Source of the DNA: a virus
DNA: 31,218 nt
Strand: one strand, 5' to 3'
Virus record (IMG/VR): IMGVR_UViG_3300005470_000014
Coordinates: 1 to 31,218 of that record
Part shown: piece after piece, positions 4,420 to 24,964 of the stretch
Layout of the letters: each line of letters starts with the position of its first letter
How positions within the stretch are numbered: the stretch's first letter is position 1
The notes under the pieces: model-generated
The model's input: only the letters and a program-made list of their open reading frames with translations
Database searches by the model: none
Told to the model about the DNA's origin: nothing
Program-made: the position numbers and the translations under genes

Positions 4420-4448
4420 TAATATATTAGGAATCCGGTAATATATTA
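4420..4448 (-). promoter_or_regulatory. Paired TAATATATTA palindromes, probable TATA promoter
   Basis: The 10-bp palindrome TAATATATTA occurs at 4420-4429 and 4439-4448, 19 bp apart, in the only gap between the portal and the next gene. The second copy overlaps the portal stop codon. Either could act as an archaeal TATA box for the 4397 gene and the protease/capsid genes downstream, or bind a regulator. Confidence 0.4.
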
Positions 4449-6821
4449 AATTCGTTTTAGCCTGATGTTGTCATATCTCGCAGCCAACTCCACTGCTGAG
4501 CTAGGCATATCCTCAGCCAATACATGACGCTGGTCGCATCTGCAGTTATATGGCTGGTCGCCTCCCACCACATACGTCTCCCGAGGGTAGTCTTTCGGCT
4601 GTCCCTTGAACCCTCCCGGTACTGTAAACTTGTCATACTTCCCCACGATCACGCCGTCCATCGCCTTATGCCATGCCCTGGTCCTATTCCCTGGAGTTGA
4701 ATCCCATTGTTTCCCTGCAATGAGGTTGGTAGACTCTGCGACCAGCTGAACGCTCTCACGCTTCGCCCCCATTACCTCGGTCCTTGCGATTAATCGGCTC
4801 TTGGCCTGGCTGATCTCGTCCACTCTCTCATCCAGCTCCTCGGTCAGCTCCTGGATGGTCATGTTCTCCTCTGCTGCCTGGGTCAATACTGTCCCTATCT
4901 GCTCCCTGACGGACTGCTCCACTGACATCGCCCTGACTTCGGCGGCCTCTAGCATCAGCCTGAGAGATGTTGACCTTTCGTTTATTGGAGGTGGTAAGAA
5001 CTCCACACGCTCCCCGGTCGCCTCCTCTATGCGGTCCTCTATCTCCTCGGCCTGACGAATGAACTCCAGCCGATATACCTCTCTGTTGCCCTCTACTATC
5101 CGGTTATAGATGCCTTCAGCGAGTCCAATGCCCCGGAGTATCTCCGCTATGGGTATGACGGCGGTAGCTCCCTTCTTGAACGACTTGGGCCAAATATCCC
5201 TGATCTCGGCCTCCGTCCCCTTCAGCTCGTCCCGGATAAACTTCTCGATATCCTTGGCCATGTCCTGACCGATATCAAACAGCTCCTTGTCATCGTTGAA
5301 CTGTTCCTCGTCCAGCCCTTCCATGTCCTCGCTCTTGGTCATCGGATAAGGAAAATGTTTTTTTTCACCCTCTGCTGGAAGTCGTTGCAATCCAAACAAA
5401 CCACCGCCTCCGGTATTGGGAGGAGGGGCTTCGGGCTTATTATCCATCGTGATAAACTCGTCATAGAACCACTCGGGATGTCGGTCTATCATGGTCTGAT
5501 AAAGTTTATGAGGCATATCACCCCAGGGGACTGGTTCCTCTCCCCTCTCTACCAGGACCTGGTTGAGTGTTACCAGCCCCTTGTCCAGGTCCACGTCCTG
5601 CCTGGCCCTCATCTGGTCATCAGCGTCTGGGTGGGTGATCTTGAACTTGAATACTAGTCCGCCCTTCATCCTCTGGTAAGGTTCAAGATAAGGCATTATC
5701 TGGCGGTTGATATCGTGCTCGATCTTGGAGAGTAGGGGCATGGTGGTCTTACGCCATACATCAACGCTGAACTGTTTCGTTCCCCCTGGTCGAGTTACCT
5801 CGGCGATATCACCTACCTCGTTGGCATTTAGCCCGAACATCATCCAGACCATCTTGACATACCACTGCTGGCTCTCAAGATATTGTAATTCTTTCATGGA
5901 CCCACGGAAAGGCGTATAATTGACGCCATCCATACCGCCTATTATCGGTAACTTGTGGGACTTGCCTTTTACCTCGGCCCTCCAGTAATCTATGACCTTG
6001 CTGACCTCGTCCTGTCCCGCTCCCATTATCGCCAGTATTCCCTCGGGTACCTCGTCATCCCTGAATGATTTTCTATTCACCAGGAGAGCGTTGAGGGATA
6101 TCTCCGCTAAGATTGCAGCATCAGATACCAGACCTCTGCTGTATGCGTCATAACTCCGGGGAGACAGGTCGGTCCACATGATATCCTTTCGATTGAACTC
6201 TACGGGCTTTAGTTGCGAAATACGGTATCGGTACGTGTTCTCTGCGACTCCATACTCAACTAGATACTGGCTGTCAGTATCACGCTGCAGAACTCCAGAC
6301 ATAACTCCACCGCCCCATTGATAATAAGCCGGATCCTTGCTGTCCGACGATGGGAGCTGTCCAAACTCGTCGATATTCTTCGTGAAGAGACCGGAATCCC
6401 TTACGAATAACTGGCCGATGGTGTTCTCTTTCCCATCATACCATACCTTTTCCATGCACCCGTTGCCAATGCTCAGCATATCCCCAGCATACTTGCATAA
6501 CAAAGACCCGAACGCCTCACCGTTCACATTGAACCGTCCATCAAAGAAATCGGCGATCTCATTGGCTGCCTTCTTATAGGCCTCGTCATCCTTGAACTCT
6601 TCCTCTGGCCGGACCTCCCAGAGCGTCTCGGCAAGCTGAGTCTTAATGATATTCATCGGCAGGGTTATCGCTGGAGATGTCTCTAGCTGGCGTATGCGGA
6701 CAATGTCCTCTTTTCTGGCGACTCCCTTGCCGAGGGTGTTAAAAAAATATCTCGGTTCCTGGGCTTTGGGGTCTCCCCCCACATTAATATTTTTCCTCGA
6801 GTATGGCGTGAATACTGGCAT
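4446..6821 (-). CDS. Portal protein fused to MuF-type minor head protein
   Basis: 791 residues from ATG 6821 behind AGGAGG. Residues 1 to about 470 match a phage portal: the ring through which DNA is packaged (PAITLPMNIIKTQLAETLWEV, a DDEVPEGILAIMG turn, and FGLNANEVGDIAEVTRPGG, typical of phage portals). A Gly/Pro linker (about 465-480) leads to a helical region and a C-terminal MuF-like domain: RTEVMGAKRES, KQWDSTPGNRTRAWH and the conserved NCRC at 759-762. MuF proteins are usually encoded separately next to the portal, so this is a fusion. It overlaps no neighbour and ends at the promoter-like repeats. Confidence 0.9.
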   Translation of the reverse strand: MPVFTPYSRKNINVGGDPKAQEPRYFFNTLGKGVARKEDIVRIRQLETSPAITLPMNIIKTQLAETLWEVRPEEEFKDDEAYKKAANEIADFFDGRFNVNGEAFGSLLCKYAGDMLSIGNGCMEKVWYDGKENTIGQLFVRDSGLFTKNIDEFGQLPSSDSKDPAYYQWGGGVMSGVLQRDTDSQYLVEYGVAENTYRYRISQLKPVEFNRKDIMWTDLSPRSYDAYSRGLVSDAAILAEISLNALLVNRKSFRDDEVPEGILAIMGAGQDEVSKVIDYWRAEVKGKSHKLPIIGGMDGVNYTPFRGSMKELQYLESQQWYVKMVWMMFGLNANEVGDIAEVTRPGGTKQFSVDVWRKTTMPLLSKIEHDINRQIMPYLEPYQRMKGGLVFKFKITHPDADDQMRARQDVDLDKGLVTLNQVLVERGEEPVPWGDMPHKLYQTMIDRHPEWFYDEFITMDNKPEAPPPNTGGGGLFGLQRLPAEGEKKHFPYPMTKSEDMEGLDEEQFNDDKELFDIGQDMAKDIEKFIRDELKGTEAEIRDIWPKSFKKGATAVIPIAEILRGIGLAEGIYNRIVEGNREVYRLEFIRQAEEIEDRIEEATGERVEFLPPPINERSTSLRLMLEAAEVRAMSVEQSVREQIGTVLTQAAEENMTIQELTEELDERVDEISQAKSRLIARTEVMGAKRESVQLVAESTNLIAGKQWDSTPGNRTRAWHKAMDGVIVGKYDKFTVPGGFKGQPKDYPRETYVVGGDQPYNCRCDQRHVLAEDMPSSAVELAARYDNIRLKRI

Positions 6822-7353: not shown

Positions 7354-8847
7354 TTACCCGAATAAACTAAATTTTGATCTCATATTATATTGTTTTGTGT
7401 ATTTATTTTTTTTATTTGGATTTTCCCCTTGATTTGATAGTTGCCCTATGGCTACCCCTTCGTATGGTGTGACGTCTGCTACAGATAGCATCAGCGAATC
7501 AGCGAAATCTGGACTCCCGTCCGGAGGGTCAATAATTTTTATTTTTCCTGCTGTTGTTATTTGCCAACGCATGTCTGCTAGTTGTTGCTTTAATTTTTCA
7601 TCGTTTGGTATGGATATTAAATTCTCCTCAAATAATTCTCGTAAATGCCAGTAATGTTGAGCCTTTTGATTTAAAAACCTATCTCTCGGAATGTCTTTTC
7701 CTCTTTTTTTTGCTAATTTATCTTTAATATTTTTAAATGGGGCCCTTGATACTCTTACCCCTATACTATTATATTCCAACTCCTTAAGCCTGGAATGAAC
7801 GCCAGACCCTACGCCAATGCTATCCACTCTCAACGGGTCAGCCCTACTGATTAAGGGGCATACTAATTTAACTATTTGCATGGGTTCATTACAATCTAAG
7901 ACTCGTTGCCATTTCGCTATTCTGCGAATTCCGTCCCAATATGACTTAGTCAATACAGTAAGGTCCGTCCCACTATCTGCAGGGTCTAATCCCCATATTA
8001 TATTACCATCAATGGACCAGTCGTTATTAGATGCACGTATGATATGATCCCAAGGTATAAGTGCATCTTCCGCTGAGTCTGGAAATTCGGAATCATACAA
8101 AATCTTAAACTCTGTGGGGCTCAAATTATCTCGCTGATCGTCTATTTTTTCCTGTGATATCCTGCCTTCCATTACTCCTTGTTCCCAAGAAATATGAATA
8201 TTCCTATATTTAGAGTCTTTCCATGCGGCATAGAACTGGTTTGATTTATCCCAGGGGTTTCCTATCTGCACTATTTTAGTCTCGCCAATCCCAGAATCCT
8301 CCTCCATCCGGCTAACCTTCGTCCTGAATACCTCATAAGACAAGAGGCATGACTCATCTATGATTATCAACTGCCCGCCATGACCCATTAACCTGTCCCC
8401 TGTACCATAGCCTGATAATATACGTATATGGCAACCGTTTTTCATGGTTATATGAGTTTTGCTAACTTCTGTTTTTAACCGTTCCACGCTGCTGGCCCTG
8501 GTATCCACCAATCTCCTTAATTCTGGACTTACTATAATATTCTCAGCCACATACTCCATAAGCTTGCTTGACTGAGCACGCTGTGGGCTAATCACATCAA
8601 TCTCATGGCCTTCATTGATATAGGCCCATAATAGAATAGCAATCGCCACGGCCCACGTTTTCCCGTAACGAGTGTGTGCTGTGATGCAAATCCTTCTATC
8701 TGGTTTGAATACTATAACCTTAATTATTTCTTCCTCACCCGGTGTTATCTCTTGCTGAAACAATATCTTACATAGTGTATATACGTCCTGATCATTGACG
8801 GCTTGGTCAATGGCACAATGCCTGAAAAACTCCACCGCTATGGTCAT
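7354..8847 (-). CDS. terL: Terminase large subunit (DNA-packaging ATPase/nuclease)
   Basis: 497 residues from ATG 8847 behind GAGGAGG. The N-terminal ATPase has a Walker A-like AHTRYGKT (57-64) and Walker B LIIIDES (160-166, Asp164, Glu165). The C-terminal RNase H-like nuclease has probable metal-binding aspartates at Asp288 (WGLDPADSG), Asp342 (VDSIGVGSGV) and in FADSLML near residue 450. It drives genome packaging into the prohead and cuts concatemers. It directly follows the small subunit. Codon third positions are visibly more A/T-rich than in neighbouring genes, suggesting a different origin or recent exchange. Confidence 0.92.
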   Translation of the reverse strand: MTIAVEFFRHCAIDQAVNDQDVYTLCKILFQQEITPGEEEIIKVIVFKPDRRICITAHTRYGKTWAVAIAILLWAYINEGHEIDVISPQRAQSSKLMEYVAENIIVSPELRRLVDTRASSVERLKTEVSKTHITMKNGCHIRILSGYGTGDRLMGHGGQLIIIDESCLLSYEVFRTKVSRMEEDSGIGETKIVQIGNPWDKSNQFYAAWKDSKYRNIHISWEQGVMEGRISQEKIDDQRDNLSPTEFKILYDSEFPDSAEDALIPWDHIIRASNNDWSIDGNIIWGLDPADSGTDLTVLTKSYWDGIRRIAKWQRVLDCNEPMQIVKLVCPLISRADPLRVDSIGVGSGVHSRLKELEYNSIGVRVSRAPFKNIKDKLAKKRGKDIPRDRFLNQKAQHYWHLRELFEENLISIPNDEKLKQQLADMRWQITTAGKIKIIDPPDGSPDFADSLMLSVADVTPYEGVAIGQLSNQGENPNKKNKYTKQYNMRSKFSLFG

Positions 8848-12311: not shown

Positions 12312-12664
12312 CCAATAAAAAAACGAGAGATGTGGAAATAACACCAAACCAGAACTATTCCATCCTGACCAATTTCAACGAGGAGCAGGCTGAGAGAGTG
12401 GAGAGAGTAAAGAATGCCTCAGGACTGCCCTGGACCGATTACATCGATGAGGCCAGTATAATGAGGGAGAACGGGCAATATGACGCTATGGAGCATGTTA
12501 TCAATAACGTCATAGAGCTGGCCGAGCAGATGACGCCAGGCTCGGGAAAATTATTGAAAATATTTAAACCGTATCTAAAAAGCCCCCCTCAGGATGGATT
12601 TATGGACCGTCTGGAGGAACACATACAGTACATTTTCACGGGGCGGAAAAATGATACCGAATGA
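12308..12664 (+). CDS. Hypothetical protein preceding the MCM helicase
   Basis: 118 residues from ATG 12308, overlapping the previous gene by 4 bp and the MCM gene by 14 bp. The sequence is mainly helical and acidic (NEEQAERVERVKNAS, DAMEHVINNVIELAEQM). No domain was recognised. Tight coupling to the helicase gene suggests a partner role such as loader or regulator, but this is inference from position only. Confidence 0.6.
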   Translation: MTNKKTRDVEITPNQNYSILTNFNEEQAERVERVKNASGLPWTDYIDEASIMRENGQYDAMEHVINNVIELAEQMTPGSGKLLKIFKPYLKSPPQDGFMDRLEEHIQYIFTGRKNDTE

Positions 12665-14753
12665 GGCCCCTGACTGGTGGGAGGACCTTTTTGAGTCCTT
12701 GCCTGATCTGGAGGAAGAGGGCCAGCCCAGGAACTACAGGGCGGCCATCAGCGAGGCCATTACTGACTGTGGTAAAATACCTTATGCGGCCGTGGATGTG
12801 TATCTGTCAGATTTGGAGAAGATACACCAGGACCTCAGACCTGAGACCACCCGGGACCCTGTGGCCATGCTCACCAAGGGCGACGAGATATTAAACAAGG
12901 TAGGCCGGCGAGTAATGAAAGAGATGGATCCCGATGACCTTACCATCCAGCTCCTGCCTCAATTAAATATCAATCTCATCGGCGGGGATGCTGCGACCAA
13001 TAGACCTATTGGGTCCGTGAGGTATGCTGAGACTGGGACGCTGATATCATTCATAGGCATGATACAACGGACCTCAAGGCCCCAGTATAGAGCTTTGAAA
13101 GAAGGATATCAATGCGCCAGATGTAAGGTTCCCCAGGTGATCACCCAAAAATATTATATGGAGCATTTGGCCCCGTATGTATGTCCCAAAGACCTCGGAG
13201 GCTGCGGCAGAGCTACCAGCTCAACCTCGTTTAAACGGATACCTAAATTTGATATTTCCACCAGAACGCAGACCATAGTGGTCCAAGAGCCCTGGGAGGA
13301 GATAGGAGGAGCGAGTAATCGGGAAAAATTAGAATGTCATATCGATGGCGGGATGGTTGGACGGTTCCGGGTAGGGGAGCGGGTGAAGATCCACGGGGTG
13401 CTTGATATCCTGACCAACCAGCGGAGCAAGAAACCAGTATATCACATGTATCTCAGGGTCTTGGGCATTGAAAAGATAAAGGACCTATCCCTGGACATCT
13501 CACTCACCAAGGACATGGAGGCCATCAGGAAGATAGCCGCCTCAGAAAGTCCGATAAACCGGCTTACTCTGAAATTTGCCCCCTCGATAAAGGGGCTCAC
13601 TCATATCAAACGCTCGATATTATTGCAGATGTTCGGCTGTGACAGACAGATACATCAGCATACCAAAGAGGTAATGAGGGGAGACCTTCACGTCCTGATG
13701 GTGGGGGACCCTGCTACGGGTAAGACCGCTTTGCAGAAATTCACGGCCAACGTTACGCCCAGGGGGCGGTTCATTAACTGCTACAGGGCCACGGCTGCAG
13801 GGCTGACAGCTGCGGTCACAGAGGAAGGCGGTGAGTATGTACTGGACGCCGGGGCGATGGTCCTCGCTTCGGGAGGTATAGCCTGCCTCGAAGAGTTCGG
13901 GCGGTTAAAGGACGAGGTCAAGCCCGACCTATTGGACGCCATGAGCATCCAGGAGATAACAGTCAACAAGGCCAAGATACACGAGTCACTATCCACCATC
14001 ACGCCTGTATTGGCCGGATGTAACCCCAAGCATGGGAAATTTGCCGACGACAAGGATATCAGGCCCCAGATAGATATTGACGACCCTGTGCTGTCCCGGT
14101 TCGACCTGGTGTATATTATCAAGGATATCCCCAATGAGCTGCAGGATACCGTGGAATGTTCCCACATACTTAATTTTTGGTGCGGCGGCCAGTATGAGGA
14201 CTTTGATATCTCCATATTGCCTACGTATATACAGGAGGCCAAGAAGATAGACCCCTCCATGTATGACCCTGGTGACGGGGGATTATTTAATCGGCTCATG
14301 GAGAAAATAAAAACCAGTTATGTAATGATGCGCCAGCAGTATGATGCTTTTTCCGTGGTCCCCATTGACAAGCGTCATTTATTTACATTGATCAGGCTGG
14401 CCAAGGCCCACGCCCGGAGCCGTCTGTCCTCTGTGGTTAGCGAGGGCGACGTGGACGTGGCTGTGAGCATATTGATGGATTGTATAGCCGCTGCAGCTGA
14501 GGAGGGCGTGAGCGCTTCCCCTGAGGTCATAGATGAGGACCTACGGCAGGTCATAGATATGATAGAGGCTAATATGCTAAAGTTAATGAATATGAACGAC
14601 CGGTTTAAAATAGCCGTGCCTGGTCGGGCAATAGTTGAGTCAGTGAACGCCCACGGGTTCCAGGAAAAGACGGTTTGGAAGGGGATAAATATGCTGCTCA
14701 AGGATAATCGAATATGGAAGGTAGGGGACCAGGGGTATCACATATCGAGGTGA
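12651..14753 (+). CDS. mcm: MCM replicative helicase
   Basis: 700 residues from ATG 12651; an ATG at 12594 would add 19 residues that overlap the upstream gene. The N-terminal domain has a zinc site (CARC near 153, CPKDLGGC near 178) and OB-fold strands. The AAA+ core has Walker A GDPATGKT (about 353), a Walker B GGIACLEEF with Glu-Glu in place of the usual Asp-Glu, sensor-1 Asn in LAGCNPKHG, and the arginine finger SRFD (about 482). The C-terminus looks like a winged helix. MCM unwinds DNA as a hexamer in archaea, so it is the main evidence for an archaeal host and a self-encoded replication start. Confidence 0.93.
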   Translation: MIPNEAPDWWEDLFESLPDLEEEGQPRNYRAAISEAITDCGKIPYAAVDVYLSDLEKIHQDLRPETTRDPVAMLTKGDEILNKVGRRVMKEMDPDDLTIQLLPQLNINLIGGDAATNRPIGSVRYAETGTLISFIGMIQRTSRPQYRALKEGYQCARCKVPQVITQKYYMEHLAPYVCPKDLGGCGRATSSTSFKRIPKFDISTRTQTIVVQEPWEEIGGASNREKLECHIDGGMVGRFRVGERVKIHGVLDILTNQRSKKPVYHMYLRVLGIEKIKDLSLDISLTKDMEAIRKIAASESPINRLTLKFAPSIKGLTHIKRSILLQMFGCDRQIHQHTKEVMRGDLHVLMVGDPATGKTALQKFTANVTPRGRFINCYRATAAGLTAAVTEEGGEYVLDAGAMVLASGGIACLEEFGRLKDEVKPDLLDAMSIQEITVNKAKIHESLSTITPVLAGCNPKHGKFADDKDIRPQIDIDDPVLSRFDLVYIIKDIPNELQDTVECSHILNFWCGGQYEDFDISILPTYIQEAKKIDPSMYDPGDGGLFNRLMEKIKTSYVMMRQQYDAFSVVPIDKRHLFTLIRLAKAHARSRLSSVVSEGDVDVAVSILMDCIAAAAEEGVSASPEVIDEDLRQVIDMIEANMLKLMNMNDRFKIAVPGRAIVESVNAHGFQEKTVWKGINMLLKDNRIWKVGDQGYHISR

Positions 14754-14757
14754 ATAA

Positions 14758-15873
14758 ATGCTGACGGTGGGTTCATTGTTTTCAGGAATAGGAGGGATTG
14801 ATCTGGGGCTGGAAAGGGCGGGTATGAAAGTATTATGGCAGGTGGAAATAGATGAATATTGCAGAAGAGTGCTCGAAAAACACTGGCCGAAAGTGCCAAG
14901 ATACGGAGACATCACAGAACTCAGAGGGCGGGAGCTGCCTCCAGTTGACGTTATCGCCGGAGGTTTCCCCTGTCAGGACATCAGTGTCGCTGGTAAAGGA
15001 AAAGGTCTTGAGGGCGATAGGTCGGGGTTATTCTTTGAGATGGCCAGAGTTATTGAGGAAGCCAGGCCACGATACATTATCATTGAGAATGTCCCCAACC
15101 TTGTCAGACTTGGCATGGACCGAGTTGGTGAAGAGCTACGGCGCATTGGTTATAAACCGCTGCGACCTATACTTATTCAAGCTTCCTCGGTTGGAGCATT
15201 GCATAAAAGAGAAAGAATTTTCATTATTGCCCACCGCATCAGCATGGGACGGCAGAAGAGGACCGGCGAGGGAATACGACCCGAAGAGCAAGAGCCAAAA
15301 GGACAGGAACTTGAACACATTCGCCAGATGTTACCTGAGGGCTCAAACGTGGCCGACGCCAAGAGCCCAGGAGAAAGGGGATTATTGTTACAGCAAAGGA
15401 GACCATCAAAAGAAGGTTCTCACTCTATCAGGAAAAGTAAAGCTGTATCCCACTCCGGTGGCATCGGACGGAAAACGACAAAGCGAAACATACATGGGAG
15501 GGAACAAGACACTACCAGGAGCGGTGAAAACATACCCAACACCAATTGCCAGGGATTATCGGGCTCCTCATGGAAAAAACAGCGAAGCTTTCCAAAAAAG
15601 AATGGAACACCCCCGAGGGGTCAACTTAGTGGAAGAAATACAGCGAAGAAACTTGGGAGTTGGTGGTCAGCTGAGTGCCGACTGGGTCGAGCTCCTGATG
15701 GGGTTTCCTGTGGGTTGGACAGTTGTGGAGGATGGGAATGCGGAATAGATAGGGTAGCGGTGAAACAAAAGGATAGAGTCAATCGATTGAAGGGATTAGG
15801 TAACGCTGTGGTCCCACAAGTGGCCGAGATAGTAGGCAGGATATTAATAGACTTCGACGAGGTGAATGGATGA
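14758..15873 (+). CDS. DNA (cytosine-5) methyltransferase
   Basis: 371 residues from ATG 14758, 4 bp after the helicase. Motif I FSGIGGIDLGL (8-18), motif IV GGFPCQDIS with catalytic Cys72, motif VI ENV (110-112), motif VIII HKRERIFIIAHR (149-160) and a C-terminal motif X-like RLKGLGNAVVPQVAE are all present. The target-recognition region (about 165-325) contains NVADAKSPGERG and IPNTNCQG segments usual in phage enzymes. It methylates cytosines, probably to evade host restriction. A second, conserved-looking frame overlaps the recognition region (see 14852-15748). The gene is solitary; no restriction nuclease is nearby. Confidence 0.9.
   Translation: MLTVGSLFSGIGGIDLGLERAGMKVLWQVEIDEYCRRVLEKHWPKVPRYGDITELRGRELPPVDVIAGGFPCQDISVAGKGKGLEGDRSGLFFEMARVIEEARPRYIIIENVPNLVRLGMDRVGEELRRIGYKPLRPILIQASSVGALHKRERIFIIAHRISMGRQKRTGEGIRPEEQEPKGQELEHIRQMLPEGSNVADAKSPGERGLLLQQRRPSKEGSHSIRKSKAVSHSGGIGRKTTKRNIHGREQDTTRSGENIPNTNCQGLSGSSWKKQRSFPKKNGTPPRGQLSGRNTAKKLGSWWSAECRLGRAPDGVSCGLDSCGGWECGIDRVAVKQKDRVNRLKGLGNAVVPQVAEIVGRILIDFDEVNG
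14852..15748 (+). CDS. Overlapping +1 frame encoding an alternative methyltransferase target-recognition domain
   Basis: This frame is open for 298 codons inside the methyltransferase gene. From about 15224 it reads like the C-terminus of another common group of phage C5 methyltransferases: LLPTASAWDGRRG, WPTPRAQEKGDY, YPTPVASDGKR, YPTPIARDYRAPHG, then GGQLSADWVELLMGFPVGWT near the end. The first 120 codons do not look protein-like, so expression would need a +1 (or -2) frameshift from the main frame around motif VIII (about 15200-15230) or internal initiation. No ribosome-binding site is evident. It may instead be an evolutionary relic of an ancient frame change. Confidence 0.35.
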   Translation: MNIAEECSKNTGRKCQDTETSQNSEGGSCLQLTLSPEVSPVRTSVSLVKEKVLRAIGRGYSLRWPELLRKPGHDTLSLRMSPTLSDLAWTELVKSYGALVINRCDLYLFKLPRLEHCIKEKEFSLLPTASAWDGRRGPAREYDPKSKSQKDRNLNTFARCYLRAQTWPTPRAQEKGDYCYSKGDHQKKVLTLSGKVKLYPTPVASDGKRQSETYMGGNKTLPGAVKTYPTPIARDYRAPHGKNSEAFQKRMEHPRGVNLVEEIQRRNLGVGGQLSADWVELLMGFPVGWTVVEDGNAE

Positions 15874-16058: not shown

Positions 16059-16607
16059 ATGATAATAATAGGAATAGACCTCGGGTTCAGCGCCACCGGA
16101 ATAGTGGCCCTAGATACCGACACGGATCAAATAATCATGGGGCAGACGGTCAGGACCAAGCCCGAGAAAGGAAAAAGGCATTACGTGGCTGATGACGATC
16201 TCAGGAGATGCAGAGAACTCGCCCAGGGCATTGTGGGAGCGGTGAATGATTGTTATCTTAAAGGGTCCCCGTTCATATTGGCCGTAGAGGTTCCGCACGG
16301 AGGTGCTCAGGGAGCTCGTAGCAATAGATGTATGGGTATGGTCACCGGAGTCCTCGGGGCTCTCGTAGAGACGAATCTATGGCCCGTGGAGTATTATCAG
16401 CCTCAGGAGTGCAAGAAGGCCGCCACGGGCAGGATGTCAGCCTCCAAGATTGAGGTAGAGCAGAGGGTTAGGAAGAGATGGCCTGGACATACGTGGCCCA
16501 AGACCAAGGCCGTGAGAGAGCACCAGATAGACGCAGCAGCCGCCATAATGTGCGCTCTGGATAACAGCAACCTGGTCCGGTTCGGATTTCATCAGAGGAG
16601 AGAATAA
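16059..16607 (+). CDS. RuvC-like Holliday junction resolvase
   Basis: 182 residues from ATG 16059 (GAGGATG upstream). It shows the RNase H-fold resolvase pattern: GIDLGFSATG with Asp7, AVEVP with Glu77, and a C-terminal HQIDAAAA with His155 and Asp158. The size matches RuvC-type enzymes. It would resolve branched replication or recombination intermediates before packaging. It lies downstream of helicase and methyltransferase in the early operon. Confidence 0.85.
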   Translation: MIIIGIDLGFSATGIVALDTDTDQIIMGQTVRTKPEKGKRHYVADDDLRRCRELAQGIVGAVNDCYLKGSPFILAVEVPHGGAQGARSNRCMGMVTGVLGALVETNLWPVEYYQPQECKKAATGRMSASKIEVEQRVRKRWPGHTWPKTKAVREHQIDAAAAIMCALDNSNLVRFGFHQRRE

Positions 16608-20771: not shown

Positions 20772-23033
20772 TTAATATGTCTCGTCTAGTACTGTAGTAT
20801 ATCCATTAAAAGGACTCCCCACTTTTCCGCCGACATCTTCCACTCCGAAACCCTCACCGAAATCGCCGAACCTGAAAAACCCGTCATCAATATCAGGAAT
20901 ATACATTTTCAACGCTGTAACCTTGATCTTGACTGGTTGTTTTAGTCTGTTGGTCTCCACCGGGGCCACCGCTGCAGAGGAGGTTTTCATATCCACCCTG
21001 GTCTTTTCAGTCTGCAGCATATTCAATATATCTATAACTCCCTCGTAGTTCTCCAGGAGGGTTACCTTGGTCTGGCCCGATGTGTTCCAAATTATTTTTG
21101 TTATGACATATTCCGTGGCCGTGGCGATATGCAGGTCGGAGGAAGTCACCGGTACCACCTGTCCGGGAGATAGGTCAGGGAAATTAATTGTATCGACGTA
21201 TATCACGTTCAAGGGCTCAGCCCGGTTGAGATACGCCTCTCCCTTCTCTATAGCGTCAGCCTCTGCCGTGATCTCAGGGTGGTCATAGCTGGCCGTTCTC
21301 ATAATGGGCCTTACTGTTCCCACCGTGGTCTGATTATCTGCAGCTCTGTCGAACCTGGTCACCGTGACGGCATTGGCCCCGCTATTATAATATATCACCA
21401 CACGGTCCACCGCCTCCGTCTCATCTTCCTCCTCCTCGGCCATCAGGATGTTATTATCTGAGAACGATAAAGGGGCAGCTGTAAGGTCTCGAGGCTTGAA
21501 ATAAAACACCAGGTCGTCAGTAGCTCCAAAAGCCTCATTGCCCGATAGGGTGGCTAACTCCTGGATTATCTGATCTAACCGGGTTCCTCTCCACTCCCGG
21601 GTCACGCTGTTATTGTTCACTACCTGGACATTACTCCCTATTCTGACCTGGTCCACCCGTGGAGTGTCGGACCCATCACCCACCAAATATATTTTAATGC
21701 TGATCTTGTCGCCTGTGGTCCCGGTTAAGGTCCCTGTGAAATCAGCTTCCTGGAGGGCTGTGATGCCGTCGGTTATGATATTGGTCCCATAGGTGGCCAC
21801 CACCACGCCGTCGTTTAATACCTCGATTTTATCAATATAATTATTGACATCACAATTATCGGTTGTAATTGACACTATGGTGAACGGGTCGTCATGGTCG
21901 GCGAAATCGTCACTTTCCCAGTCCCCGCTGGTCTCATATTCTCCGACCGTAAAGTCATCATACCAGACCGTATTCCCCTTGACCACCAGCTGAATGCTCT
22001 CAGTAGACGCTCCAGCGTTTTTGAAATTATAAGGGCCGTAATTAGTGCCGTTCACATCCACAGTGAAAGTGTTGGCTGTGTAATTTGGATAGATGACAAT
22101 ACTATGCCAGGTATCAGTTGAGAACGTGGCTAATATCTGTTTCCAAAGGCCGTCGTTATAATACAGCCCTCCATTCCTGGCCTCGATGTATACCAGAATA
22201 TTGCCTACATTATAGTTTCCCGCTACGTCCTGGAGGATTATCCCTCCGACGTCAGTGGTCAGGGTGTTCTCATCTAAGTATATCTGGCAGGCGATAGGGT
22301 CATCATCCGTGTTATGACTTATATCATGGTGAGCATAGCCAAAGGTTCCCGCCCCCTCCTCGCATTTGAGCGACCTTTTCCGGCCTGTATTAGTGGCTGC
22401 CTGCTCGTCATCAATTTCAATAGTATCCATTGTATTACCAAGCCCCCCATCAGGAACCCAATTATCTGGAACGTCTCCATCCTCTTCATTTAGGAAATTA
22501 TCACGCCAAGCGGACCCATAGGCCAACTGTAGAACTCCAGCAGGGCAGTCTTTACGGCAGTAATGACATTCGGTATCTTCGCTCTGGTCATTCGGGTGCT
22601 GTCCTGCTCCGGTTAAATGCCATTCGTCTGTATCGCTCATCCCATAATCCAACCATTCAAGAGCGCAATAATTTTCTATCAGGTCCTGGAGTATGACGGC
22701 AATATCCTCAGCCGTATAACTGACAAAAATATCGTCTCGTCTCCGTAGCAGGAAATCACCGCTTAAAATTTCCAGCTTGGCCCCTTTCTGCCCCTCGGTC
22801 ACATTCATAACGAAACCTGTCATCTTGAGAACGTCCCCGGATCCGTCATCGTAATAGACCCGGACCGGTGTATGGGTTGGATAATCGTCCTTGATGGTTC
22901 TACCACTGGAGGCCAAGACCTCCACCTGAACGGACCTGGCAAACCTGTCGATAGCATCAGTAACTGACAGGACAATGGCATCCTCGTCCTCGGCCCAGCC
23001 TCCATCGTTCCGGTGTAGCGACCACGTGGTTAT
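20772..23033 (-). CDS. Tail hub / baseplate protein with laminin-G-like insertion
   Basis: The reading frame extends upstream of the first GTG (22925) to a TAG near 23066, with no ATG, GTG or TTG in between. An AGGAG site is well placed for ATA 23033, giving 753 residues beginning TTWSLHRNDGGWAEDEDA. The N- and C-terminal parts (RSVQVEVLASSGRTIKD, EGQKGAKLEILSGDFLLRR; later ITKIIWNTSGQTKVTLLE) fit a gpD/gp27-like tail hub. A middle region (about 165-370) is rich in Tyr, Trp and Asp with a concanavalin/laminin-G-like pattern that could bind sugars. A Cys trio (CHYC, C at 156-163) lies before it. Confidence 0.7.
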   Translation of the reverse strand: MTTWSLHRNDGGWAEDEDAIVLSVTDAIDRFARSVQVEVLASSGRTIKDDYPTHTPVRVYYDDGSGDVLKMTGFVMNVTEGQKGAKLEILSGDFLLRRRDDIFVSYTAEDIAVILQDLIENYCALEWLDYGMSDTDEWHLTGAGQHPNDQSEDTECHYCRKDCPAGVLQLAYGSAWRDNFLNEEDGDVPDNWVPDGGLGNTMDTIEIDDEQAATNTGRKRSLKCEEGAGTFGYAHHDISHNTDDDPIACQIYLDENTLTTDVGGIILQDVAGNYNVGNILVYIEARNGGLYYNDGLWKQILATFSTDTWHSIVIYPNYTANTFTVDVNGTNYGPYNFKNAGASTESIQLVVKGNTVWYDDFTVGEYETSGDWESDDFADHDDPFTIVSITTDNCDVNNYIDKIEVLNDGVVVATYGTNIITDGITALQEADFTGTLTGTTGDKISIKIYLVGDGSDTPRVDQVRIGSNVQVVNNNSVTREWRGTRLDQIIQELATLSGNEAFGATDDLVFYFKPRDLTAAPLSFSDNNILMAEEEEDETEAVDRVVIYYNSGANAVTVTRFDRAADNQTTVGTVRPIMRTASYDHPEITAEADAIEKGEAYLNRAEPLNVIYVDTINFPDLSPGQVVPVTSSDLHIATATEYVITKIIWNTSGQTKVTLLENYEGVIDILNMLQTEKTRVDMKTSSAAVAPVETNRLKQPVKIKVTALKMYIPDIDDGFFRFGDFGEGFGVEDVGGKVGSPFNGYTTVLDETY

Positions 23034-23548: not shown

Positions 23549-24964
23549 TTACCGCCTCCTCAGTTTTTCGATGATGGAATCACCTGCGGCCAAACCCAGG
23601 CGAGACCCTGCGCCCATGCTCCCGGTGTCCCCTGTCAGATTGATGGATCCGATATTGATCACATTCGTTTTAGTGGTGGACGTGCTGGCTGGTGAAGGGG
23701 TGAACGCTGCCGGTCCTAATCCTTGGCCCTTCATCCCGAGACTGCGCTGGGCGTCCTGCATACCCTGGGAGAAATACTTAATCATATCAGCGCCCGACCT
23801 CATTGCCCAGAGATCGTTCTTTCGGAGGTCGAAGGAGAACACATTTTTAATTTTCTTGCCCACGTTCTTAACCGCATCCTTTGCCTTATCCCATCCTGAT
23901 TTAATACCCTTTGCGATATTCTGGACGATATGTTTCCCCCAGTCCAATGCTCCTTTCACCCACTCCATGGCCTTCTCCTTGATAGATGTAAAACCGTTTT
24001 TGATGGCAGCCCATATTTTCGCCCCGATATTCCCAATTCCCTCGATTATCTTATCCACCATCATGCCCCCGATATTGAGTAACCCGTTAAGGATGGCAAC
24101 CCAGAACTCGGCCGTTCCTAACGGTTTAATAGCATTCAATATCTTTGAGCCTAACTCGGAGAAAAAGGAGGCTATAGTATCCCATTTACTTTTTAGCCAG
24201 TCCGTTATATTGCCCCAGTGCTCAACGATATAAATGACTCCCTGAATCGCCTCGACCATCCAACCGATAGGACCCAAGAAAAACATTATTGCATGAGTCC
24301 AAGCTCCGAGCTTTTCTTTTATCTTATCATACTTAATTGTTAAAAACACCACTGCAGCAATGGCGGCCACAATAGCCGCAACTAACAGACCGATAGGGTT
24401 CGCTATCATGGCGGCATTCCAGGCCCATTGTGCAGCGGTTGCGACAGTCGTGGAAACTGCCAAGGCTCCCGTTTTTATTGTCATAAATCCAGTTTGTACC
24501 GTATTAACGATAAATGACGCATTTACGGCATTGGTGGCTATGATGATAGCAATTAATGCAGCTACTAAAAATCCAACAATAGATATAACTTTCTGAACCG
24601 GTTCGGGCAATCCTGTAAAAACATCGTAGAGCTTCCAAGCCGCTTTTTCTATTGCTTTGAAAATAGGTTCTAAATGTGTACCCATCTCCATAAATAATAG
24701 AGAAAATGCTATCCGGGAGGAGGCAAGGGAGGCATTTAATACAGGGGACGATTTAATAATACCATACATTAGAGCGGCCCCTGCTGCGGCTATAGCTGTC
24801 ATGGTGGTCTCGTTACGCTGGAGCCATTGGGAAGTAGAATCAGCGCTTTTCTTGGCGGCTTTGCCCTGCTTCTCCGTGGCCTTGGCTACCTTCTCCTGGT
24901 CCTTGACCATCTTCTCCGCTCCAGTGGAGACGTATCTCGTCGCTATAACTCGTTCATAGGCCAT
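23549..24964 (-). CDS. Tail tape measure protein
   Basis: 471 residues from ATG 24964 behind GGAGG. The N-terminus is a Lys/Ala-rich helix (KDQEKVAKATEKQGKAAKKS). Hydrophobic stretches follow (TAIAAAGAALMYGIIK, VISIVGFLVAALIAIIIA, and NPIGLLVAAIVAAIAAVVFL after the signature WAWNAAMIA), then amphipathic helices with IKNGFTSIKEKAMEWVKG, usual in tape measures. It sets tail length; at this size the tail is short to moderate for a siphovirus. The N-terminal half is more A/T-rich at codon third positions than the rest. Confidence 0.85.
   Translation of the reverse strand: MAYERVIATRYVSTGAEKMVKDQEKVAKATEKQGKAAKKSADSTSQWLQRNETTMTAIAAAGAALMYGIIKSSPVLNASLASSRIAFSLLFMEMGTHLEPIFKAIEKAAWKLYDVFTGLPEPVQKVISIVGFLVAALIAIIIATNAVNASFIVNTVQTGFMTIKTGALAVSTTVATAAQWAWNAAMIANPIGLLVAAIVAAIAAVVFLTIKYDKIKEKLGAWTHAIMFFLGPIGWMVEAIQGVIYIVEHWGNITDWLKSKWDTIASFFSELGSKILNAIKPLGTAEFWVAILNGLLNIGGMMVDKIIEGIGNIGAKIWAAIKNGFTSIKEKAMEWVKGALDWGKHIVQNIAKGIKSGWDKAKDAVKNVGKKIKNVFSFDLRKNDLWAMRSGADMIKYFSQGMQDAQRSLGMKGQGLGPAAFTPSPASTSTTKTNVINIGSINLTGDTGSMGAGSRLGLAAGDSIIEKLRRR

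Follow-up and report, generated by a model that had tools for sequence, protein, structure and literature searches.

The virus record IMGVR_UViG_3300005470_000014 (the window, 31,218 bases in all) carries a C5-cytosine methyltransferase gene whose DNA is read as protein in two frames. A first-pass annotation, made from the letters alone, had pointed to methyltransferase-like signatures in frame 0 and in the +1 frame, and had proposed either a frameshift giving two specificities or an ancient frame change of which this gene preserves both sides. Here we show that both frames are protein-coding under selection, that their roles are divided, and that the arrangement is widespread; the dual-frame pattern is real, and far more general than had been supposed. 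The locus very probably encodes a two-subunit (heterodimeric) C5-cytosine methyltransferase from two overlapping genes, with a catalytic alpha subunit in frame 0 and a nested +1 beta subunit that would provide target recognition and motif IX.

Frame 0 is intact from 14,758 to 15,873, as had been claimed, and its 371-residue product is a C5-cytosine methyltransferase by its matches to PF00145 (9.2e-49) and phrog_363 (4.4e-76). The catalytic domain has the motifs expected of such an enzyme, I, IV (PC), VI (ENV) and VIII, and G69, P71, C72, Q73 and E110 are invariant columns of alpha; a spliced query matched M.HhaI at 3e-25 over residues 6–158. An AlphaFold model of the frame-0 protein, built on a 62-sequence alignment, gave a confident catalytic domain at residues 1–160 (predicted local distance difference test, pLDDT, mostly 94–98) and a C-terminal motif X helix (80–97), with about residues 166–335 mostly below 66 and predicted to be disordered. 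By Foldseek, only about 163 columns of the alpha model aligned with M.HhaI. Given this disorder and the short alignment, frame 0 has no visible recognition domain: neither such a domain nor motif IX was found within the alpha chain, and motif IX is present only in +1. Splicing the two frames in silico extended the PF00145 alignment to position 320 of 324 and did not raise the score (166.8 vs 167 bits), and the chimera was not counted as evidence.

The +1 frame is open from 14,852 to a stop at 15,748 and carries four PTP-type repeats (PTPxAxD) followed by motif IX, LSADWVELLMGFPVGWT. The peptides WPTPRAQEKG, YPTPVASDG and YPTPIARDY and the C-terminal signature WVELLMGFPVGWT all lie where the first-pass annotation had placed them, but the coding stretch in +1 extends beyond the 15,224–15,748 it had given, starting near 14,945, within the catalytic domain. 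Searched separately, the +1 translation matched phrog_1008 ('DNA methyltransferase') at 1.4e-20 over nearly its entire length; no Pfam match was found for beta, and a phmmer search with the spliced IX–X peptide of the window found nothing. The overlap was also correctly described as register-precise, with VADAKSPGERG and WPTPRAQEKG coming from the same codons. This register recurs in the relatives, where 83% of 256 +1 [WYFLM]PTPx[AV] motifs overlie frame-0 [VILMF][AS][DNHY][ASTP], because G-TGG-CCN-ACN-CCN, read one base earlier, gives V-A-[DNHY]-[ASTP]. The naming of motif IX is supported by a relative of class C, L298, in which IX is in frame 0 along with motif X and PF00145 aligns to position 323 of 324.

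Relatives were collected with four kinds of query: 80 loci with the +1 sequence, 20 with frame 0, 160 with a beta profile (80 bacterial and 80 viral), and 80 with the catalytic domain only. Because these loci come from the best-hit lists of pattern-seeded searches, the percentages given here describe near relatives rather than all phage C5-methyltransferases. L019/L321 was excluded for a frame break within the gene. In Paenibacillus larvae phages, the +1 sequence used alone as query and the frame-0 query led to one and the same site, where an internal gene is annotated. Motif IX in +1 together with motif X in frame 0, and a frame 0 open through X, was seen at 292 loci. The catalytic-domain survey excluded the overlapping recognition region from the query; 62 of its 80 loci had IX in +1 and X in frame 0, and 5 more had IX in +1 with X missed by the pattern, so that 67 of the 80 combined a +1 motif IX with a frame 0 open beyond it. 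Five were scored as lacking IX, and the three readable ones (L297, L302 and L311) were regular-expression misses with IX in +1. The remainder were four truncated contigs, three loci with IX in frame 0 and PTP repeats in +1, and one frame-broken locus.

Stops were counted over the recognition region in a non-redundant set of 223 loci, 24,796 codons in all: frame 0 and +1 had none, +2 had 1,259, and the reverse frames had 455–637 each. When synonymous codons were shuffled with the frame-0 protein kept, 301 +1 stops were expected, and about 62 of the 223 loci would be open in +1 by chance. All 223 were open. Chance had been called an unlikely source, with random +1 stops in homologues named as what would count against the idea; what was found is the opposite.

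Selection was divided between the frames along the gene. Frame-0 synonymous codons were conserved at 1.0–1.1 times expectation over codons 2–61 and at 1.2–1.5 times over codons 62–159, with a peak of 2.4 over motif IX and a drop back to 1.02 immediately past the beta stop; the +1 constraint spans codons ~62–329. For 21 independent close pairs, substitutions were then scored by their effect in each frame. Changes silent in both frames were equally frequent in the three regions compared (0.31, 0.33 and 0.34 per opportunity), and this equality makes them an internal neutral standard. In codons 1–50 frame 0 alone was constrained, and changes making a +1 stop occurred as often as the other silent changes (0.40). 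Over motifs IV–VIII frame 0 was strongly constrained (0.039) and +1 moderately (0.15), and +1-stop-creating changes were avoided (the S0X1 rate, 0.022 vs 0.40 in codons 1–50). In the recognition region, frame-0-silent changes that alter +1 were rare (0.048) and the converse common (0.199), and in close pairs omega was about 0.14 for +1 and about 0.58 for frame 0. The same handover of constraint is seen between the Escherichia coli phage K1ind3 and its close relative Golestan, whose substitutions at the three frame-0 codon positions number 0/0/7 in codons 1–55 and 19/4/7 in the recognition region.

Natural variants of the layout support a split enzyme. Class B comprises 8 loci (7 distinct) plus Mycobacterium phages Flux and Murai. 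Here +1 carries motifs IX and X as well as the recognition region; frame 0 ends 3–13 codons past motif VIII, and at the 8 loci the old frame 0 then contains 6–18 stops. Conversely, where the recognition region or motif IX is in frame 0, +1 has 1–10 stops. Tweety gp72 and Filuzino gp68 have the same catalytic domain, type of recognition repeat and motif IX as the window, but there a single frame, frame 0, encodes the PTP repeats, a motif IX-like stretch and X along with the catalytic domain, and +1 contains stops. That recognition regions of this kind also exist in single-chain enzymes was counted in favor of the split-enzyme reading. In Filuzino gp68 (L003:1170-2780) a +1 reading still gives the first PTP repeat before it meets a stop, and the later repeats are in frame 0; to judge from its sequence, this gene looks like a former two-frame gene whose frames have become fused. 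Another candidate single-chain fusion, L133, may instead belong to class B and carry a single indel, whether natural or due to sequencing error, and because of this ambiguity the Mycobacterium phage genes were used as the single-chain examples. In L298, L300 and L301 the PTP repeats are in +1 and IX and X in frame 0. L094 and L095 show this variant split as well, and in all of these loci beta would be a recognition region only. Across the variants, an open frame 0 in the recognition region is retained only if it has to reach a frame-0 X (or IX), and an open +1 only if it carries the recognition region. The suggested ancient frame change fits in part: most relatives have the recognition region in +1, and a few single-chain enzymes have it in frame 0. 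The dual state is not a relic, however, as selection on both frames maintains it.

In the proposed enzyme, alpha would bind S-adenosylmethionine and carry out catalysis through motifs I–VIII, continue as a disordered spacer, and end in the motif X helix. Beta, read in the +1 frame, would start from a ribosome-binding site of its own within the alpha gene, just 5' of motif IV, and its contribution would be the PTPxAxD target-recognition repeats together with motif IX. The two chains would join in a single enzyme, beta taking the place of the small domain missing from alpha. That beta starts separately, that the chains assemble in trans and that beta reads the target we infer from the anatomy of the locus and from the two-chain enzymes M.EcoHK31I and M.AquI.

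The possibility of a programmed frameshift from frame 0 to +1 near motif VIII, giving a fusion of the N-terminal domain with the recognition region beside the unshifted product, has in its favor that the +1 recognition region comes directly after motif VIII, as in the single-chain relatives. A shift at VIII, however, would not need a +1 frame that is already constrained and stop-free over motifs IV–VIII, and the shifted product would lack motif X at most loci. Nor was a common slippery site visible at the class B frame-0 stops, where the sequences varied. Further, a Shine-Dalgarno (SD) sequence with a start codon was found in +1 just 5' of motif IV at 63% of loci, compared to 19% under the synonymous null and 4% in frame +2, and a strong SD (≥6 bases) with a start at 22% versus 2%. 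This enrichment favors a separately started beta, and we consider frameshifting unlikely.

Other explanations fare less well. If the two proteins were unrelated and merely shared DNA, alpha would be complete with a frame-0 recognition region and beta would do something else; the lack of a Pfam match or confident fold for beta speaks for this. But single-chain enzymes have the recognition motifs and IX in the frame of the catalytic domain, IX is placed likewise in class C, alpha lacks both motif IX and a folded recognition domain, and class B shifts motif X into beta, all of which make unrelated proteins quite improbable. No more credible is the earlier idea of two alternative recognition domains conferring two specificities. 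Both frames are indeed open and resemble methyltransferase families, and both are selected as protein, which is as far as the idea is supported; yet the frame-0 sequence of the recognition region is predicted to be disordered, is weakly selected by the omega values above, and is lost to stops when it is not needed to reach motif X, and +1 has ribosome-binding and start signals of its own. It is for these reasons, a disordered and weakly selected spacer in one frame and start signals in the other, that the two frames look like subunits of one enzyme. Finally, high-GC members have few stops in any frame, and an open +1 might be a by-product of codon use, or a sequencing error, with no second protein. 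This is refuted by the stop counts, with far more loci open than chance would give, and by substitutions that track the +1 codon phase; finished genomes of phages and E. coli chromosomes also show the layout.

Some observations weigh against the two-subunit enzyme. In the window, beta would start at a TTG whose SD is modest, and 37% of the relatives have no recognizable SD and start 5' of motif IV. The frame-0 spacer is weakly constrained (0.20 vs 0.34), and a minor role for it is possible. AlphaFold modeled beta alone poorly, with a mean pLDDT of 56 and only the motif IX helix reaching 81, and a beta profile search of the PDB returned nothing meaningful. The poor model is as might be expected if the subunit folds only in complex, and may be taken as neutral.

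Two-chain C5-methyltransferases have precedents, of which M.EcoHK31I is the closest. In M.EcoHK31I (YGGCCR), Lee, Kam and Shaw are said to have found in 1995 that the small subunit (176 residues) is read from another frame inside the large-subunit gene (309 residues). An overlap of this kind, a small-chain gene within a large-chain gene in another frame, is present in the window and in the 223 non-redundant relatives. By its published description M.EcoHK31I divides its motifs as the window does, with I–VIII and X in the large chain and IX in the small (PMC3404938). In the literature its large chain is predicted to hold the recognition domain; here, by contrast, recognition is placed in the nested small subunit by selection and structure prediction. 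M.AquI (CYCGRG) is split after motif VIII in the variable region, and its small chain has IX and X (PMC3404938). Class B relatives (L109, L120, L152, L188, L205; Flux gp80/gp79) share this split; the window is not of the M.AquI type, since its motif X has stayed in frame 0, which runs without a stop through the recognition region. In the ShiLan domain, a hidden HNH endonuclease is encoded in another frame of a phage methylase gene (PMC11855218). That is likewise a second protein from another frame of such a gene, but the ShiLan domain is a homing insertion in the third frame, patchy and without a ribosome-binding site, while the window has no insertion and its +1 gene is nearly universal in the family and carries methyltransferase motifs; the ShiLan case is unrelated.

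The same nested +1 gene has been annotated within C5-methyltransferase genes as the 'internal gene' of P. larvae phages (Redbud gp51, Bloom gp57) and as 'Mte8-like' ORF29 of K1ind3, in each case as a separate hypothetical or methyltransferase gene, and our searches turned up no statement of a split enzyme. In K1ind3 (L346:1002-1931) both alpha (ORF30, 309 residues) and the nested +1 ORF29 (265 residues) are annotated; in Golestan (L349:1080-2009) only alpha is (gp34). An E. coli prophage locus (ECCTRSRTH03, L351:2863-4032) appears in RefSeq as two partial, incomplete 'DNA cytosine methyltransferase' pseudogenes, yet frame 0 is intact and +1 has PTP repeats and IX; from its sequence it is probably a misannotated two-frame enzyme. 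The openly licensed literature, to which the search was confined, yielded no description of overlapping or nested phage methyltransferase genes, nor any account of the family as a two-frame enzyme.

By gene content the window is of the tailed-virus type, and its features are collected in Table 1. The methyltransferase start lies five bases past the stop of the helicase gene directly 5' of it. Just 3' is a RuvC-like resolvase gene (16,059–16,607; PF02075, 6e-4, slightly under the cutoff), and the order helicase, methyltransferase, RuvC is also found in the P. larvae phages Bloom and Redbud (L001, L006). A 717-residue open reading frame on the minus strand of the tail gene region (20,772–22,925) had no match in Pfam or PHROG.

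Table 1. Features of the window, with the methyltransferase locus in detail
Feature	Position	Strand	Remarks
Portal	4446-6821	minus	
Terminase	7354-8847	minus	
MCM-like helicase	12594-14753		phrog_10371, 2e-92
Alpha subunit gene (putative)	14758..15873	+	frame 0, 371 residues; motifs I-VIII and X, predicted disordered spacer at the recognition-domain position
Beta subunit gene (putative), nested	14945..15748	+	+1 frame, 267 residues; target-recognition repeats and motif IX
Beta start (putative)	14945		TTG, most likely; alternative ATG 14852
Putative Shine-Dalgarno GGGAG	14930..14934	+	10 nt 5' of the beta TTG
Motif IV of alpha (GGFPCQ)	14959..14976	+	+1 constraint starts just 5' of it
Motif VIII of alpha (HKRERIFIIA)	15202..15231	+	final part of the folded catalytic domain
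Beta target-recognition region	15227..15562	+	four PTP-type repeats
Repeats, +1 frame	15227; 15350; 15446; 15533		LPTASAWDG; WPTPRAQEKGD; YPTPVASDG; YPTPIARDY
Frame-0 reading of recognition-region DNA			VADAK.., VSHSGG.., IPNTN..
Motif IX in beta (QLSADWVELLMGFPVGWT)	15668..15721	+	(near-)invariant columns among 62 beta sequences
Motif X of alpha (KGLGNAVVP)	15790..15816	+	frame 0, past the beta stop
Tape-measure-like	23549-24964	minus	

The arrangement explains how two seemingly different sets of phage methyltransferase signatures come to lie on the same DNA: the overlap, on one strand, is long and deeply conserved, and through it the two halves of a single enzyme are apparently superimposed. 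It also bears on annotation, since automatic pipelines usually keep one frame, as in Golestan, call the other 'hypothetical', or split the locus into two partial pseudogenes, as in the ECCTRSRTH03 prophage. For the family as a whole we lean, at somewhat better than even chances, to the view that these phages and prophages hide a specificity gene inside the catalytic gene, that what was taken for a frame-0 'recognition domain' is a spacer, that recognition by the large subunit of M.EcoHK31I was misassigned, and that specificity would be swappable in trans through the nested frame. Two questions thereby become testable: which subunit reads the target in enzymes of the M.EcoHK31I type, and whether exchange of the nested frame swaps specificity.
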